Source: Flagellimonas flava (GTDB lineage Bacteria; Bacteroidota; Bacteroidia; Flavobacteriales; Flavobacteriaceae). From it: a DNA stretch of 64,000 nt. The stretch covers positions 620,001 to 684,000 of the forward strand of contig NZ_FQWL01000001.1 in NCBI RefSeq assembly GCF_900129665.1, given 5' to 3'. The notes under the pieces are model-generated. The model was given only the letters and a program-made list of their open reading frames with translations, was not told the DNA's origin and made no database searches. A program made the position numbers and the translations under genes. Below, one piece after another: positions 24,905 through 30,387 of the stretch (positions are counted from its first letter, which is position 1; each line of letters begins with the position of its first letter).

Positions 24905-25588
24905 TTAAGGCGATGGGGTATTGTTAAACCTATGGGTCAACAATCTGACGTCTTCAATGAGTCGTTGTATTTCATCTGGATCGGTGCCATTATATACACC
25001 CCTAATTTGTCTTTTTTTATCGACCAGTACAAAGTTTGGGGTATGGATAAAATCCTGTAATCCGCCATCGCCATAGTCCAAAGCTGCAAAAAAGCTCTTT
25101 CGCGCTAAATCGTAAATGTGTTTTTTGTCACCAGTGGTCACGTTCCATTTTGAATCCAGAACCCCATTTTTACGGGCGTATTCCTTTAAAATGGGGACAC
25201 TGTCCATTTCCGGGGTAACGGACATGGATAAAAACATAACATCATCATTATTGATAAACTCTTTTTGCAATTTTCCCATATTGTTGGACATAATGGGACA
25301 GATGCTGGGACAACGGGTAAAAAAGAAATCGGTAACATATATCTTGTTGTCGTATGTGGATTGCGTTATCAACTCCCCATTCTGGTTGGTAAGATTAAAG
25401 TCGGATACTGTATGATGGGATGCTACTTGCTGTGTTTCCGAATCCACTAAATCTGGATGAAAATCTTTTGGACCAAATACGGGGAGCTCAGCTTTTTGAT
25501 TAGGAAATATTGAAACCACCATTAAAATGCCAATAATCACAATTAGAAAGGGTATTTTGACTGCTTTTAGTGTTGTGGACATTTTCAT
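24905..25588 (-). CDS. SCO1/SenC family copper-binding protein
   Basis: A 227-residue membrane-anchored protein with an N-terminal helix (about 12-28) and a periplasmic thioredoxin-fold domain. The copper ligands are present: C93 and C97 in the CPSIC motif and H182 in DFIHTPNF. SCO proteins deliver copper to, or reduce, the CuA site of cytochrome oxidase; some act in copper or redox stress. It follows the TPR gene with a 9-base gap on the same strand, and lies at the end of a long minus-strand run that includes the ApbE/DUF3570 genes. Confidence 0.92.
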   Translation of the reverse strand: MKMSTTLKAVKIPFLIVIIGILMVVSIFPNQKAELPVFGPKDFHPDLVDSETQQVASHHTVSDFNLTNQNGELITQSTYDNKIYVTDFFFTRCPSICPIMSNNMGKLQKEFINNDDVMFLSMSVTPEMDSVPILKEYARKNGVLDSKWNVTTGDKKHIYDLARKSFFAALDYGDGGLQDFIHTPNFVLVDKKRQIRGVYNGTDPDEIQRLIEDVRLLTHRFNNTPSP

Positions 25589-25597
25589 AGGTAGCTT

Positions 25598-27328
25598 TTA
25601 TAACACGGAATTTTCAATTTTAATATCTGAATGTTCCCAGGCCTTGTCAAATTCTTGTTTTATGACGGAAGCCTCATCCATCCGTCCTTGGGCCTTTAAA
25701 CTTTTGTACAAACCCATCAACGACCATCCGTTTTGTCTGAGCACATCCAAATCTGCCCGGTACACCTTTTCTGCTTCCTTGAAGTTTTCGGCCTGCATCA
25801 GGACAGCACCTAGATTTTGTCGTGTTGGGATGTGCCATGCTGCCGGTTCCGTATACGTAAGTGCATCTTCATATTGAACCGCTTGCTCCAGATGCTTTAT
25901 AGCAGTTGTTAGATCTCCATTTAAGGCGGCCAATTCCCCGGAGACAACTTCATAGGCAATGTTGGCCGAGTTGATGGATGGGTTCTGGGCTGTGGCAATC
26001 AATGTTTCCATCTCTGGATCGTTCTTTAGAGCACCAATGGCCTCCAGCTCTTCCTGTGCTTCCTTGACATTCCCTTTTCTGATGAATGCCATCCCCCGCG
26101 CATAATGACGAATGAGATTAAGATGTTTTATGTCGGGATTTGGAGCCGGAATGGTCAATATCTCATTCCACTTGCCAAACCGAGTATAGGCAAGCATGGG
26201 CGTAGAAGCAAAATCTTGCAAAAAGGGCATGGAAACCAATTCTCCGACAGGTACTTTTTCGGCTGTTTTTTTGGCGGCGTCCATGGCTATGCGACTATCA
26301 CCTAGTAGACTTGCCGCAGACCATAAAAAATGAATGTTATGTGGATAATACCCCAATGGATATAAACCTTGGGAATAACATTGGGAAATATAGTCCTCAT
26401 CTGCCATAATTGCTGCCTGATTCGCCTCAACGGCATCGAGATATCTCCCTACCCTGATATAAATATGTGAGGGCATGTGCACTAAATGCCCAGCGGCAGG
26501 CATCAACTGCCCCAATTTGTCAGCACTGGCTACACCTAGGTCAGGCTTTGGAAGCTCTACCATGTGAATGTAATAGTGGTGGGCCCCAGGATTATTGGGG
26601 TTAAGTTGCATGGCTTTTTCCAGGGCCGCCTTGGCCTCTGGGATGTTGGGCGAGGGATTGCCTTCCTCATCCCAATAGTTCCATGGTACCGTATTCATTA
26701 TCGAAGCGGCATAGAGTACTTGTACTTCTGCATCTTCAGGGAATTGTTTTACCACCTTGGCCATGGCTTCCATATAGGCTAGGTTTAATTCGGCAACATC
26801 CTTCTCTAGATCAGTGCTATACCTAGCCTGCAAAGCTCCAATAAGTGCTTTTTCCTTGGGTGTGGCATTTTCGGATAGGCGCATTGCTTCTGCCAAAGCC
26901 TCGTTGGTCTTAATTTTGCGGTCCTCCGGAGGAAGGGGGTCATTAATATTTGGACCTAGGGCATAGGCTTGGCCCCAAAAGGTCATAGCAGAAGTTGGAT
27001 CTAACCTTGACGCTTCCATGAAGGATCTATGGGCCTCAGCATGATTAAAAGCATAGGTGAGGCGCAGACCTTGATTGAAAAAAGTCTGGGCCATTTCATT
27101 ATCTGTACTAATGTTATACTGGAGTTCTCCCAAATTCTCGAAAAGCGGTGCTATTTGCTGCGTACTATCAGGTACTTCCAACAAATATTGGGTAGGTGTA
27201 CACTTGATAAAGCTAAAAGACGCGCTTTGATATTTGGCAAAGGTCTTTGTGTTGTTGTTTTTGGTTAAAAAATGAATGGCTACCGCCATTCCCAATAGTA
27301 CAAGGGCTAGGCTTAGTTTCGTTTTCAT
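25598..27328 (-). CDS. Secreted TPR protein
   Basis: A 576-residue protein from the ATG at 27328 (MKTKLSLALVLLGMAVAIHF, signal or anchor). The body is a series of TPR units: FNHAEAHRSFMEASRLDPTSA, AALEKAMQLNPNNPGAHHYY, and near the end TAIKHLEQAVQYEDAL and FKEAEKVYRADLDVLRQNG. It has several His and Trp in conserved helices (HLVHMPSHIYIRVGRY), which may mark a binding face. It is transcribed with the SCO gene downstream (9-base gap), which suggests a link with copper or electron transport. No enzymatic domain is seen. Confidence 0.8.
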   Translation of the reverse strand: MKTKLSLALVLLGMAVAIHFLTKNNNTKTFAKYQSASFSFIKCTPTQYLLEVPDSTQQIAPLFENLGELQYNISTDNEMAQTFFNQGLRLTYAFNHAEAHRSFMEASRLDPTSAMTFWGQAYALGPNINDPLPPEDRKIKTNEALAEAMRLSENATPKEKALIGALQARYSTDLEKDVAELNLAYMEAMAKVVKQFPEDAEVQVLYAASIMNTVPWNYWDEEGNPSPNIPEAKAALEKAMQLNPNNPGAHHYYIHMVELPKPDLGVASADKLGQLMPAAGHLVHMPSHIYIRVGRYLDAVEANQAAIMADEDYISQCYSQGLYPLGYYPHNIHFLWSAASLLGDSRIAMDAAKKTAEKVPVGELVSMPFLQDFASTPMLAYTRFGKWNEILTIPAPNPDIKHLNLIRHYARGMAFIRKGNVKEAQEELEAIGALKNDPEMETLIATAQNPSINSANIAYEVVSGELAALNGDLTTAIKHLEQAVQYEDALTYTEPAAWHIPTRQNLGAVLMQAENFKEAEKVYRADLDVLRQNGWSLMGLYKSLKAQGRMDEASVIKQEFDKAWEHSDIKIENSVL

Positions 27329-27453
27329 AATGTTAAGGTTGTTTATTTTTCGTTGGCTATGGTATGCCGGTTTTGAATCCATCAAGTGGATTTTTTGGAG
27401 GAAGCACTTTCATGGGGGAAGTCGGTCCTAGTACACTCCTGTCCAAAACTGGG

Positions 27454-27591: not shown

Positions 27592-28824
27592 CTAGTTTTT
27601 ATTCCTTCGCTTGGGTCTCTTTTCCTTCAGGGCTTTTTTCTTTAAAAAGTTAAAGGAGGTGGCAAGCGTGTGGGCCCTTAAGCCATTAGATCTTGAATAA
27701 TAGAAGTATTGTATGGAAAAACTGTGCAAACCCCTATTCTTGCGCACGGCGGGCCAATGGCGCCAACCCATACCAATGGTGAGGGAATTTATAGAGGACA
27801 AATCATAATCAGAAGTGTAGTAGGTTTCATTGGCATCATGCTCACCCTTGGCGGCAAAATATTTTGAACCTTGTTGGATATAATAGCGGGCACTTGGCAA
27901 CAAAGTCCATTTGGGACTCAGCTTTATAGCAGTTTCATTGTCTATGGTAAGTCCTAAAATTCCAAAATCATCGGTATATCCTGCAATTTTGTTTCGCAGT
28001 ATCACTCCACCTGAAGTAAAGGTGTTCCATTTTAAGGAAATGGCCAATTTCTGTCTTTGATCAGGAAGTTGTTCTACCGCTCTGGTGTTATCTGTAAAGA
28101 AAATACGGTGAAAGGGCGTAGCCAATAAACCCTTTTGCAAACTTAGGGCGGTAAAGATGCCTATTGTATTTCGTTGGTCCAAAACTTGTGTAAAGCCCAA
28201 GTTCAAATTATAAGAATCTCGTTTGTACTCATCATACCATTCCTGAAAGCGCAGTTCCACGGGGTAAATAAGGAACTGGGGTTCGGACAAGAACCCGTCA
28301 TCCAGTCTTCCCCACCTAAGGTCATCATTAAAAACCTGTAATTCAGCAGAGTAAGTTTGCATGTCGCTCTTTGAAGTTTTGGTCCAACCAAGATATTTAC
28401 CAAATGAGAAATAATCGGATTCTATAGAACCACTAAGTCCGATGCTTATGCTGCTTTTACTTTTTTCAAAATACCTTGAATAGCCGAGATTGGTGTAACT
28501 TCTTGCATCAAGTCGTGAGGCAGAGGATTGGACACGATCGATATTGTCTGTGGAAGCTGAGGAAATGATATCAGCACCCAATTGGAAGTTGATCCCATTT
28601 TTGCCAAAAGTTTTCTTAAGTCCAAACGAAGGCCCGTAAACAATTAGGCGTTCTGTGCCTTCCCCGCCGGTAACAGCTGAATTATCGCCGTCCTGGATAT
28701 AGTGGTTATACAATAGTTCAACCTCTGTTTCCCGTACTTTGAATGCTTTGTTCTTTGGTTTTTGGGCTTTTCCAAACAAAATGGAAAAAGCAAGACTACC
28801 GACAAGAATGGTTCTTTTGTTCAT
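27592..28824 (-). CDS. DUF3570 outer-membrane beta-barrel protein
   Basis: A 410-residue exported protein with a signal peptide (cleavage near FGKAQ). The remainder is alternating amphipathic strands with aromatic girdles, a barrel pattern (for example FSIQYFYYSRSNGLRAHTLATSF at the end), and it closes with a basic tail. The N-terminal motif NSAVTGGEGTERL is the conserved part of the DUF3570 family. It is the last gene of a tight cluster with DUF4266, ApbE and a thioredoxin, which I recall as a repeated association in Bacteroidota. It could be the outer-membrane partner of that system; function is not known. Confidence 0.85.
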   Translation of the reverse strand: MNKRTILVGSLAFSILFGKAQKPKNKAFKVRETEVELLYNHYIQDGDNSAVTGGEGTERLIVYGPSFGLKKTFGKNGINFQLGADIISSASTDNIDRVQSSASRLDARSYTNLGYSRYFEKSKSSISIGLSGSIESDYFSFGKYLGWTKTSKSDMQTYSAELQVFNDDLRWGRLDDGFLSEPQFLIYPVELRFQEWYDEYKRDSYNLNLGFTQVLDQRNTIGIFTALSLQKGLLATPFHRIFFTDNTRAVEQLPDQRQKLAISLKWNTFTSGGVILRNKIAGYTDDFGILGLTIDNETAIKLSPKWTLLPSARYYIQQGSKYFAAKGEHDANETYYTSDYDLSSINSLTIGMGWRHWPAVRKNRGLHSFSIQYFYYSRSNGLRAHTLATSFNFLKKKALKEKRPKRRNKN

Positions 28825-28833
28825 GTATCAACC

Positions 28834-29058
28834 CTAGTTACAACCACAACCACCACTACCTTTTTTACCTTCTGCCGCTAACGAGCCCTCCCGAATGGTA
28901 TTCACATATTGCTGAAATTTGGTTCCATTCGCACCGAACATGGACATTTCGGGGTCGTTGATGTATTGTCTTTCATAGGGTTTTAAAGAGGTGGCGCAGG
29001 ACCCAAAGAATCCGCCGATAAATAACATGAACAACGTTCTAAGCAGGAATTGGTTCAT
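28834..29058 (-). CDS. DUF4266 small lipoprotein with CxC tail
   Basis: A 74-residue lipoprotein from the ATG at 29058; lipobox FFGSC gives lipidated C21. The mature part is about 54 residues: KPYERQYINDPEM, then a Gly/Asn linker, REGSLAAEGKKG, and a terminal Gly-rich GGCGCN with C71 and C73. This matches DUF4266. Its start lies 20 bases inside the end of the ApbE gene, and DUF3570 begins 9 bases after its stop. The exposed CxC tail could bind a metal or take part in thiol exchange with the neighbouring thioredoxin. No canonical ApbE flavinylation motif (S/T-G-A-S/T) is present. Confidence 0.85.
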   Translation of the reverse strand: MNQFLLRTLFMLFIGGFFGSCATSLKPYERQYINDPEMSMFGANGTKFQQYVNTIREGSLAAEGKKGSGGCGCN

Positions 29059-29977
29059 ATTGAAGTTGTTTGGTAAAGAAAACTTTATTTTCGGCATTTA
29101 TGACGATGCCATGTGTTTGGGGGAGTTGATTTAAAAATGAGATTCCTTTTTCCAACCCCATAGCGTACACTGCGGTGGCCAGAGCATCGGAGAGTTCCGC
29201 GCTAGGAGAAAAGACGGAAACACTTTTGACCCCGCTCACCGGCAGACCGGTTTTGGGATTGATGTTATGGGAATAGCGCACTCCATTGTGCATGAAATAT
29301 TGTTCATAATCTCCAGAAGTGGCCACCGCAGCATCCTGTAAAGGCACATAAAACAGCGATTGGTTTCTGTCATCGGGATTTGAAATCCCAATTTTCCAAA
29401 CCTCGTCATTTTCATCTTTACCGAAGGCGGTAAGATCTCCACTTGCATCGATGTAACCGCCGACCAAGTTATGTTTTTTCCATTTTTTTCTGACCGCGTC
29501 TGCGGCATAACCCTTACCAATAGCGGCCAAACTAATTCGCATATCTTTTTGATATAGTTGTGCGGTGCCATTCCCGGTATCCAGACGCAAAAAATGATAG
29601 CCAATTTTCCTAAGGGTTCTGGAAATTGTTTTTTTCTCTGGAAATTTAAACGTCTGGTTTTTGAATTGATACAGTTTTTTCAAAGGCCCCATGGTTATAT
29701 CGAAATAGCCTTTGGATAATTTGGAAATTTTAATAGAGCGCTCTAGAAGTGCCAAGACCTCTGGTTCTGCAGCAATGGGGTTCCCTCCAGAATTCTCGTT
29801 GATTTTGGAAATTGTTGAATCCTCCTGAAATTCTGATAGTAACGCCTCTATACGTTGAATTTCCCCTACACCCTCATCAAGCAAAATGTTGGCTTCCCGC
29901 TCACTGGCCATAACAACGCCAAGCTCAAAGGAACAGCCCATCAATTTACATTTTCTTTTGAAGCGTTTTATAGTCAT
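29039..29977 (-). CDS. apbE: ApbE-family FAD:protein FMN transferase
   Basis: A 312-residue enzyme that transfers FMN from FAD to a Ser or Thr of a target protein. Family marks: LMGCSFEL at the start, AAIGKGYAADAV, DASGDLTAFG, the TSGDYEQYF and YSHNINPKTGLPV segments, and SDALATAVYAMG with the metal Asp. The catalytic parts look complete. Unlike most ApbE proteins it has no signal peptide: the ATG overlaps the thioredoxin stop (ATGA), leaving only about 12 basic residues before the domain. It may act in the cytoplasm or by an unusual route. Target unknown. Confidence 0.9.
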   Translation of the reverse strand: MTIKRFKRKCKLMGCSFELGVVMASEREANILLDEGVGEIQRIEALLSEFQEDSTISKINENSGGNPIAAEPEVLALLERSIKISKLSKGYFDITMGPLKKLYQFKNQTFKFPEKKTISRTLRKIGYHFLRLDTGNGTAQLYQKDMRISLAAIGKGYAADAVRKKWKKHNLVGGYIDASGDLTAFGKDENDEVWKIGISNPDDRNQSLFYVPLQDAAVATSGDYEQYFMHNGVRYSHNINPKTGLPVSGVKSVSVFSPSAELSDALATAVYAMGLEKGISFLNQLPQTHGIVINAENKVFFTKQLQYEPIPA

Positions 29978-30387
29978 TTGGACAGATTTGACTTGATTTG
30001 CGAAACAAAATCTGCAGGACTTTGATCATGGTACTCCAGGGTAATAACTTTGTCTGTACTATTGTTGATTAGCAGAATAGTGGGAAAAATACCTTTGAAG
30101 TCATATTCCTCTGCTACTTTGGCATTGTAATCTTTAATCTCCTGCTTTAATTTCTTTTTTTGTGGGAAATCAATGCGCTCCACTTCAATGTCCTCTTGGG
30201 AAAAGAAATACTTTACATAAGTACTCGAAAGCACATTTTTTTCAAACCGGATGCAGTTCATGCACCAATCCGAGCCTTCAAAGAGGATAAGTGTATACTT
30301 GGAATCCAAATCTTTATGTGGAGCAAAGGAAAGGGCACATAACACACAGAGTGAGATAACTATTTTCCAGAGTCTTGAGGTCGACAT
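29974..30387 (-). CDS. Exported thioredoxin-like protein
   Basis: A 137-residue protein with a signal peptide (WKIVISLCVLCALSFA) and a thioredoxin fold: active site WCMNC (C42, C45) and the FPTILLIN cis-Pro strand. The start chosen is the ATG at 30387; an upstream start would add a non-typical leader. It is the first gene of the ApbE/DUF4266/DUF3570 set, with a 4-base overlap to apbE, and 42 bases after sdaA. It may keep the CxC lipoprotein or a flavinylated partner in the right redox state. Confidence 0.88.
   Translation of the reverse strand: MSTSRLWKIVISLCVLCALSFAPHKDLDSKYTLILFEGSDWCMNCIRFEKNVLSSTYVKYFFSQEDIEVERIDFPQKKKLKQEIKDYNAKVAEEYDFKGIFPTILLINNSTDKVITLEYHDQSPADFVSQIKSNLSK

Follow-up and report, generated by a model that had tools for sequence, protein, structure and literature searches.

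A four-gene flavinylation cluster of Flagellimonas flava with a signal-less ApbE as a candidate outer-membrane electron-transfer module

The stretch of the Flagellimonas flava genome analysed here (64,000 nucleotides, hereafter the window) contains four adjacent genes for an exported thioredoxin-like protein, the flavin mononucleotide (FMN) transferase ApbE, a tiny DUF4266 lipoprotein and a DUF3570 outer-membrane barrel (Table 1). As a whole, the set is best explained as a flavinylation-based outer-membrane electron-transfer module, a reading to which we assign a probability of roughly one half. The set is a known kind of module in a distinct variant. Four points are new here: its ApbE bears no recognisable export signal although the neighbouring predicted substrate is an exported barrel; a confident model gives DUF3570 as a 16-strand barrel whose two acceptor serines share one disordered loop, predicted to be extracellular; the thioredoxins of the window's subclade lack the active-site proline as a clade trait; and the block is accessory in its genus, with empty sites.

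The gene set is conserved and has published relatives

The initial annotation described four coupled genes, and their coordinates, their spacing (a 4-bp overlap and a 9-bp gap) and Pfam matches above cut-off agree with this (ApbE 255.6 bits, cut-off 25.6; DUF3570 79.5 bits, cut-off 25; DUF4266 52.4 bits, cut-off 27; Thioredoxin_2 29.4 bits, cut-off 27). It also took the cluster to be uncharacterised. Rather, literature searches on DUF4266 and on DUF3570 lead to the same single study, Meheust et al. 2021 (PMC8238504), which contains this gene set; statements on this study, and on PMC12052999 and PMC6028853 below, refer to the parts of each source covered here. Among its 285 flavinylation clusters with DsbD, DUF3570 is found in 227, DUF4266 in 221 and a thioredoxin-like protein in 183, and 316 four-gene clusters are without DsbD. 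DsbD is proposed as the electron donor of such clusters and the CxC of DUF4266 is suggested to cycle, while the function of the clusters is left open (PMC8238504).

All four families are adjacent in the window, as in the published clusters, with the thioredoxin passing as Thioredoxin_2; on Thioredoxin_7, the family used in that study, it scores 21.5 bits, under the cut-off of 27. DUF3570 as a double ApbE substrate and the C-terminal CxC of DUF4266 are likewise shared. Compared with the published 'DsbD systems', however, the window has a signal-less ApbE, a CxNC-like thioredoxin and no DsbD nearby. No DsbD lies within five genes, which places the window outside that subset; the sole DsbD match in the genome is at C12:710323, about 60 kb from the cluster.

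Across 395 genomes of the phylum, DUF4266 occurs in 113, and never without DUF3570, which is found in 118; five genomes carry DUF3570 without DUF4266, and 277 carry neither (Fisher p ~1e-93, with rows that are not independent). Because all 113 DUF4266 genomes also have DUF3570, the linkage of the two families is not due to chance. The co-occurrence that the initial annotation had proposed to check is conserved.

We compared the cluster with two sets of loci (numbered with L below), in which near-identical rows are still present. The set nearest the window holds the best 80 of at least 577 confirmed loci and was seeded on the motifs in loops 1 and 2 of DUF3570; the other holds 40 places hand-chosen for spread from the DUF4266 match list. 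L040, L042 and L067 were left out because their contigs equal those of L143, L097 and L111 in length. Among the best 80 of these at least 577 loci, the nearest named relatives of the window's DUF3570 are from Muricauda myxillae (78% identity) and Allomuricauda spongiicola (80%), in which the gene that we read as dnaK is about 97% identical, placing the genus at or near Allomuricauda/Muricauda.

DUF3570 is the probable flavin acceptor

The initial annotation saw no obvious flavinylation motif in any of the four proteins. Upon inspection of DUF3570, we noticed two [S/T]GA[S/T]-like motifs, D85-I-I-S-S-A-S91 and S100-S-A-S103, judged by motif and not by alignment with the Chlorobium luteolum protein. 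In its canonical form the motif reads D-x-x-[S/T]-G-A-[S/T], with the flavin on the last residue (PMC12052999). Motif 1 otherwise fits this pattern and so differs from it by the change of Gly to Ser alone; in motif 2 the Gly is likewise replaced by Ser and the Asp is missing at its usual position. The last residue is Ser in 30/30 proteins for motif 1 and in 29/30 for motif 2, in a set made up of the window protein and 29 proteins from loci found through DUF4266 and not through the motif.

The C. luteolum DUF3570 is flavinylated at two motifs when coexpressed with its own ApbE in E. coli; the protein was mostly in the cell pellet and its purification was denaturing (PMC8238504). Because of this precedent, the barrel is the likely acceptor, and we regard DUF3570 as very probably the ApbE substrate in the window. 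The initial annotation had instead suggested a modified small lipoprotein, which now appears less likely. The position of DUF4266 that matches the motif-end acceptor is Glu76 in the window, and on this residue we rejected the protein as flavin acceptor here; Ser or Thr stands at the position in 5/20 aligned relatives, all from distant groups, which may differ.

An AlphaFold2 model of DUF3570, built with 60 sequences, reached a mean predicted local distance difference test (pLDDT) score of 89.1 and a predicted template modelling score of 0.83. It displays a closed, even-stranded barrel in which we counted 16 strands behind an N-terminal signal and, together with matches to known barrels, bears out the earlier assignment as an outer-membrane barrel. 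VIA-align matches to outer-membrane barrels have Z scores of about 15-21.5 (BamA 21.5, BcsC 18.6, CymA 18.4, OmpG 17.2), and Foldseek also matches barrels, which indicates a shared fold only. MtrB-like conduits are absent among the 50 VIA-align matches listed, which does not argue against them; no sequence relative was found in the PDB at E 0.1, and the main text of PMC8238504 gives no match for barrel, porin or Rieske.

Both acceptor serines are predicted to lie in a disordered loop (residues 89-104) between strands 3 and 4. In the model the loops on the flavin side measure 14, 16, 2, 32, 23, 4, 26 and 4 residues, and the turns on the side of the termini 2, 4, 5, 4, 3, 4 and 9. Because counting strands from a periplasmic N-terminus and this usual pattern of loop and turn lengths agree, we place the flavin loop outside. 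Flavin-side loops are also more conserved than the turns, at 2.82 versus 1.61 bits in an alignment seeded on loops 1 and 2 (A4) and at 2.52 versus 2.02 bits in an unseeded set (residue-wise p 0.025, segment-wise p 0.014). Judging from the model, it is rather likely that the flavins face the outside.

ApbE lacks a recognisable export signal

Flavinylation of exported proteins by ApbE is taken to occur outside the cytoplasm. The window ApbE has 11 residues ahead of its LMG core motif and no recognisable export signal (calls follow a hydropathy rule, not SignalP). This is common among its relatives. Six of the 118 loci, window included, have no ApbE match; of the remaining 112 cluster ApbEs, 83 are signal-less, 23 carry a signal and six are fused behind the thioredoxin, the first count becoming 82/111 once L098, which is cut at its N-terminus, is set aside. 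Signal-less and signal-bearing proteins are even in the set found through DUF4266 (18 and 18, n=36), and the set nearest the window contains 64 signal-less, 5 signal-bearing and 6 fused ApbEs (n=75), with the window as an additional signal-less case. The same rule finds a hydrophobic stretch in 72/74 thioredoxins and 81/82 DUF3570 proteins of the loci with a signal-less ApbE. A hidden upstream start with a signal was rejected, as none of the 83 signal-less ApbEs has a hydrophobic stretch between the preceding in-frame stop and the core.

On a quick, midpoint-rooted ApbE tree, which carries a long-branch warning and does not distinguish gain from loss, the signal label changes four times versus 25.8 in shuffles, so the signal-less state is a deep trait. 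The window protein has His237 and Asp264, which we equate with two conserved residues of V. cholerae ApbE, His257 and Asp285; across the signal-less ApbEs the catalytic His is kept in 83/83 and the Asp in 77/83. By its lack of a signal the window ApbE does not count as extracytosolic, which is not disqualifying under the rule of PMC8238504, by which only one target gene of a cluster needs an export signal.

The covered parts of PMC8238504 do not discuss signal-less ApbEs in such clusters, and no report of a signal-less ApbE paired with an exported barrel stands among the papers listed by wider searches, which were mostly limited to open literature in PMC. The cytosolic ApbEs of Klebsiella pneumoniae and trypanosomatids, as in the window, lack a signal peptide. 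The cytosolic enzymes named in a 2025 review act on intracellular targets, the substrate given for these being an intracellular fumarate reductase, whereas the neighbouring substrate in the window is an exported outer-membrane barrel (PMC12052999). Sec can pass bulky attached groups through a pore of up to 2.4 nm (PMC6028853). Because the window ApbE has no recognisable export signal, a cytoplasmic reaction is the most likely one, and we consider it slightly favoured that FMN is attached to DUF3570 before export.

The lipoprotein and the thioredoxin form a plausible dithiol relay

DUF4266 proved to be the tiny lipoprotein with a Gly-rich CxC tail that had been proposed (Pfam DUF4266, 52.4 bits). 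It has a lipobox-like Cys34 (GSCA), a short helical part and a disordered Gly-rich tail that ends in GSGGCGCN. The CxC tail is present in 40/40 loci brought in by the Pfam DUF4266 model; GGCGC is also invariant in 20/20 aligned proteins, a weaker observation, as a C-x-C tail pattern had been used to preselect their frames. We read the CGC tail as a dithiol arm with a flexible base. In a model of DUF4266 read through into DUF3570, helices and disorder are seen: residues 41-70 of DUF4266 have a pLDDT of 76-84, and the tail (79-101) and the flavin loop (182-194) fall below 50, a model result that fits a flexible arm.

Two side observations concern the gene order around DUF4266. Its stop and the DUF3570 start share a frame in 54/103 loci, with 26 and 23 in the other two frames; rows are related, and nothing about read-through as biology is drawn from this. 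In Edaphocola flava (L042/L097), a 614-amino-acid gene that reads as acyltransferase-like lies between apbE and DUF4266 in L042, in whose stretch no thioredoxin match was found.

The thioredoxin is exported, as had been annotated, judging from its hydrophobic N-terminus (MSTSRLWKIVISLCVLCALSFA), and matches Thioredoxin_2 at 29.4 bits. Its active site reads WCMNC. The NCBIfam DsbH model matches with E 1.5e-20 and 73.9 bits, under the curated cut-off of 190 bits, and the protein thus resembles DsbH at the sequence level without being a member. At E 0.01 it has a single PDB match, 2ju5 (E 1.2e-12, record name thioredoxin disulfide isomerase), which we take to be Chlamydia DsbH. CxPC occurs in 0/23 readable motifs of the window clade (hand-listed from the ApbE tree, plus L098), of which 18 are CxNC, versus 73/73 readable motifs outside it; one row in each group has no readable motif. 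The genome's DsbD carries CVNC in its C-terminal part. A DsbD-type gene lies downstream of the cluster at the five loci of family f18 in the comparison (L061-L065), with Pfam checked on one; as a side observation, many genomes of this family carry several DUF3570 rows, up to nine and some of them gene pieces, and often two DUF4266.

A proposed electron route and its alternatives

The earlier proposal of a redox module in the envelope that pairs with a barrel is supported, the linkage is conserved, and electron handling, one of the two roles then put forward, is likely. We infer the compartment, topology, electron path and direction, and acceptor as follows. ApbE would move FMN from flavin adenine dinucleotide (FAD) onto Ser91 and Ser103 of DUF3570 in the cytoplasm, on the unfolded barrel precursor and ahead of Sec export. 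The barrel would then insert with its two-flavin loop extracellular, or folded into the pore from outside. Electrons would pass from DsbD in the inner membrane to the DsbH-like thioredoxin, from there to the dithiol near the end of the flexible DUF4266 tail and on to the flavins, which they would leave for an acceptor outside the cell. Outward electron flow is probable. Taken jointly, a barrel that is flavinylated in the cytoplasm and passes Sec with its FMN, and whose two surface flavins are reduced by a DUF4266 arm fed by DsbD and thioredoxin, as a haem-free route common in Bacteroidota, is a tentative proposal. MtrCAB-type porin-cytochrome conduits likewise use an outer-membrane barrel as electron route, an analogy only, whereas the window cluster has no haem protein and its barrel would itself carry the flavins. 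An outside position of the flavins would make the module a haem-free electron route through the outer membrane of Bacteroidota. With whole clades in which a signal-less ApbE is linked to an exported barrel, the idea that a cofactor is attached ahead of Sec export can be put to a direct test.

Several observations weigh against this proposal. Motif 1 has Ser for Gly and motif 2 no Asp at the usual place; in another protein a Gly to Ala change about halved flavinylation, and Asp to Ala had a minor effect (PMC12052999). Without loops 1 and 2, the conservation of flavin-side loops over turns in the unseeded set is not significant (2.38 versus 2.02 bits, p 0.24). The read-through model gives no contact between the DUF4266 tail and the flavin loop and so does not support docking of the one at the other; DsbD, VIT1 and Rieske genes are not in the window parts scanned beside the cluster; and no acceptor for the electrons was identified. 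A cytoplasmic site is contradicted mainly by six loci in which thioredoxin and ApbE are fused in one frame (L111, L124, L125, L126, L128 and L140). Five of the fusions have a hydrophobic stretch at the N-terminus, the exception being L126, whose start is close to a contig end; in their lineages the fusions suggest a periplasmic ApbE. Together with the 23 cluster ApbEs that have a signal of their own, they indicate that the compartment is not fixed across the family. On the midpoint-rooted tree, L124, L126 and L128 stand beside the window-type clade at its base, whereas L111 falls within it, L140 among the signal-bearing ApbEs and L125 outside both groups; the branches with good support require no fewer than three changes of the fusion state. 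The same module might be flavinylated in the periplasm, with the signal-less ApbE carried out by another route or another exported ApbE acting in its place; two other ApbEs of the genome do carry export signals, one in a paralogous cluster and one behind a gene read as nqrF. We give this variant a real but minor chance. Stand-alone ApbEs mostly have 8-12 residues ahead of the core, which leaves no space for a signal, and apbE has stayed in the operon and kept its catalytic residues. A thioredoxin-ApbE fusion by frameshift was rejected because the frames vary (offset 2 in 37, 1 in 26 and 0 in 11 of 74 signal-less pairs).

Electrons could also run in reverse, with the flavins oxidising the DUF4266 dithiol and the thioredoxin in a disulfide-forming thiol oxidase like Erv2p, in which a C-terminal CGC arm shuttles electrons to the flavin. 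The window shares a C-terminal CGC, borne by a flexible, Gly-rich arm beside a flavoprotein, and has a CxxC thioredoxin; it uses separate polypeptides of unrelated families, however, and redox exchange of the tail is suggested by analogy. This direction seems unlikely, since the thioredoxin is closest to DsbH, a named disulfide reductase, and the DsbD-type gene by five loci and DsbD in 285 published clusters (PMC8238504) suggest that electrons come from DsbD. Less probable still is a role in metal handling, in which the CxC tail would bind Cu or Fe, while reduction of the metal at uptake or export would fall to the flavin barrel. Such a role could draw on a VIT1-type gene near nine loci (Pfam checked on one), a CusA/CzcA-like RND pump, by our reading of the sequence, near eight, and VIT1 in 25 published clusters (PMC8238504). 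These genes were not seen beside the window, and the metal-linked neighbour there, the SCO1 and TPR genes, forms a separate accessory block. For the metal half of the initially proposed electron or metal handling, no positive evidence was found at this locus. A metal acceptor would be compatible with the electron-transfer module rather than an alternative to it.

Gene coordinates, accessory block and neighbouring genes

Table 1. Features of the four-gene cluster (positions in the window).
Feature	Position	Strand	Remarks
Thioredoxin-like gene	29974..30387	minus	longest frame from 30429; exported, DsbH-like
Thioredoxin active site C-M-N-C	30253..30264	minus	from sequence; proline absent
ApbE gene	29039..29977	minus	4-bp overlap with thioredoxin gene; FAD:protein FMN transferase
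DUF4266 gene	28834..29097	minus	overlaps apbE end; lipoprotein
DUF4266 C-G-C tail	28840..28848	minus	Cys84-Gly-Cys86, then Asn and stop
DUF3570 gene	27592..28824	minus	starts 9 bp past DUF4266; 410 amino acids
DUF3570 Ser91	28552..28554	minus	predicted FMN acceptor, motif DIISSAS
DUF3570 Ser103	28516..28518	minus	predicted FMN acceptor, motif SSAS

A serine dehydratase gene precedes the cluster in the same direction, and within the cluster gene ends overlap or almost touch. The four-gene block is accessory in the genus. Window-type ApbE is found in 5/35 same-genus genomes at 64-71% identity, each with a second match at 40-42%, and a search of 40 genomes returned the insertion site at 30 loci, one of them the window's own; 14 of the 30 are empty, with the serine dehydratase directly beside an NTF2-like gene. 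The SCO1 and TPR genes (window 24905-27385) share this site, flanked by serine dehydratase on one side and NTF2-like/panB on the other, and occur there with or without the cluster within the genus; we rejected them as part of a copper system on this independent presence and absence.

The paralogous cluster of the same genome (L033, C12 ~42.3-45.7 kb) has the same order of thioredoxin, ApbE, DUF4266 and DUF3570. It differs from the window in an ApbE with a hydrophobic signal, a CGPC thioredoxin, EGSAGAN in DUF4266, SSGES as the second DUF3570 motif and a Rieske gene about 11 bp upstream. A small Rieske protein with an N-terminal signal stands beside 13 loci, including this paralogue (L033:6270-6728, C12 ~42.3 kb); its gene is directly or almost directly upstream in 12 of the 13 (exception L133), and 4/4 tested passed Pfam. 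A Rieske-type protein is a possible electron partner of DUF3570 clusters. A NusG domain II protein adjoins DUF3570 in L056 (5156-5860; Pfam checked), L057, L059 and L060.

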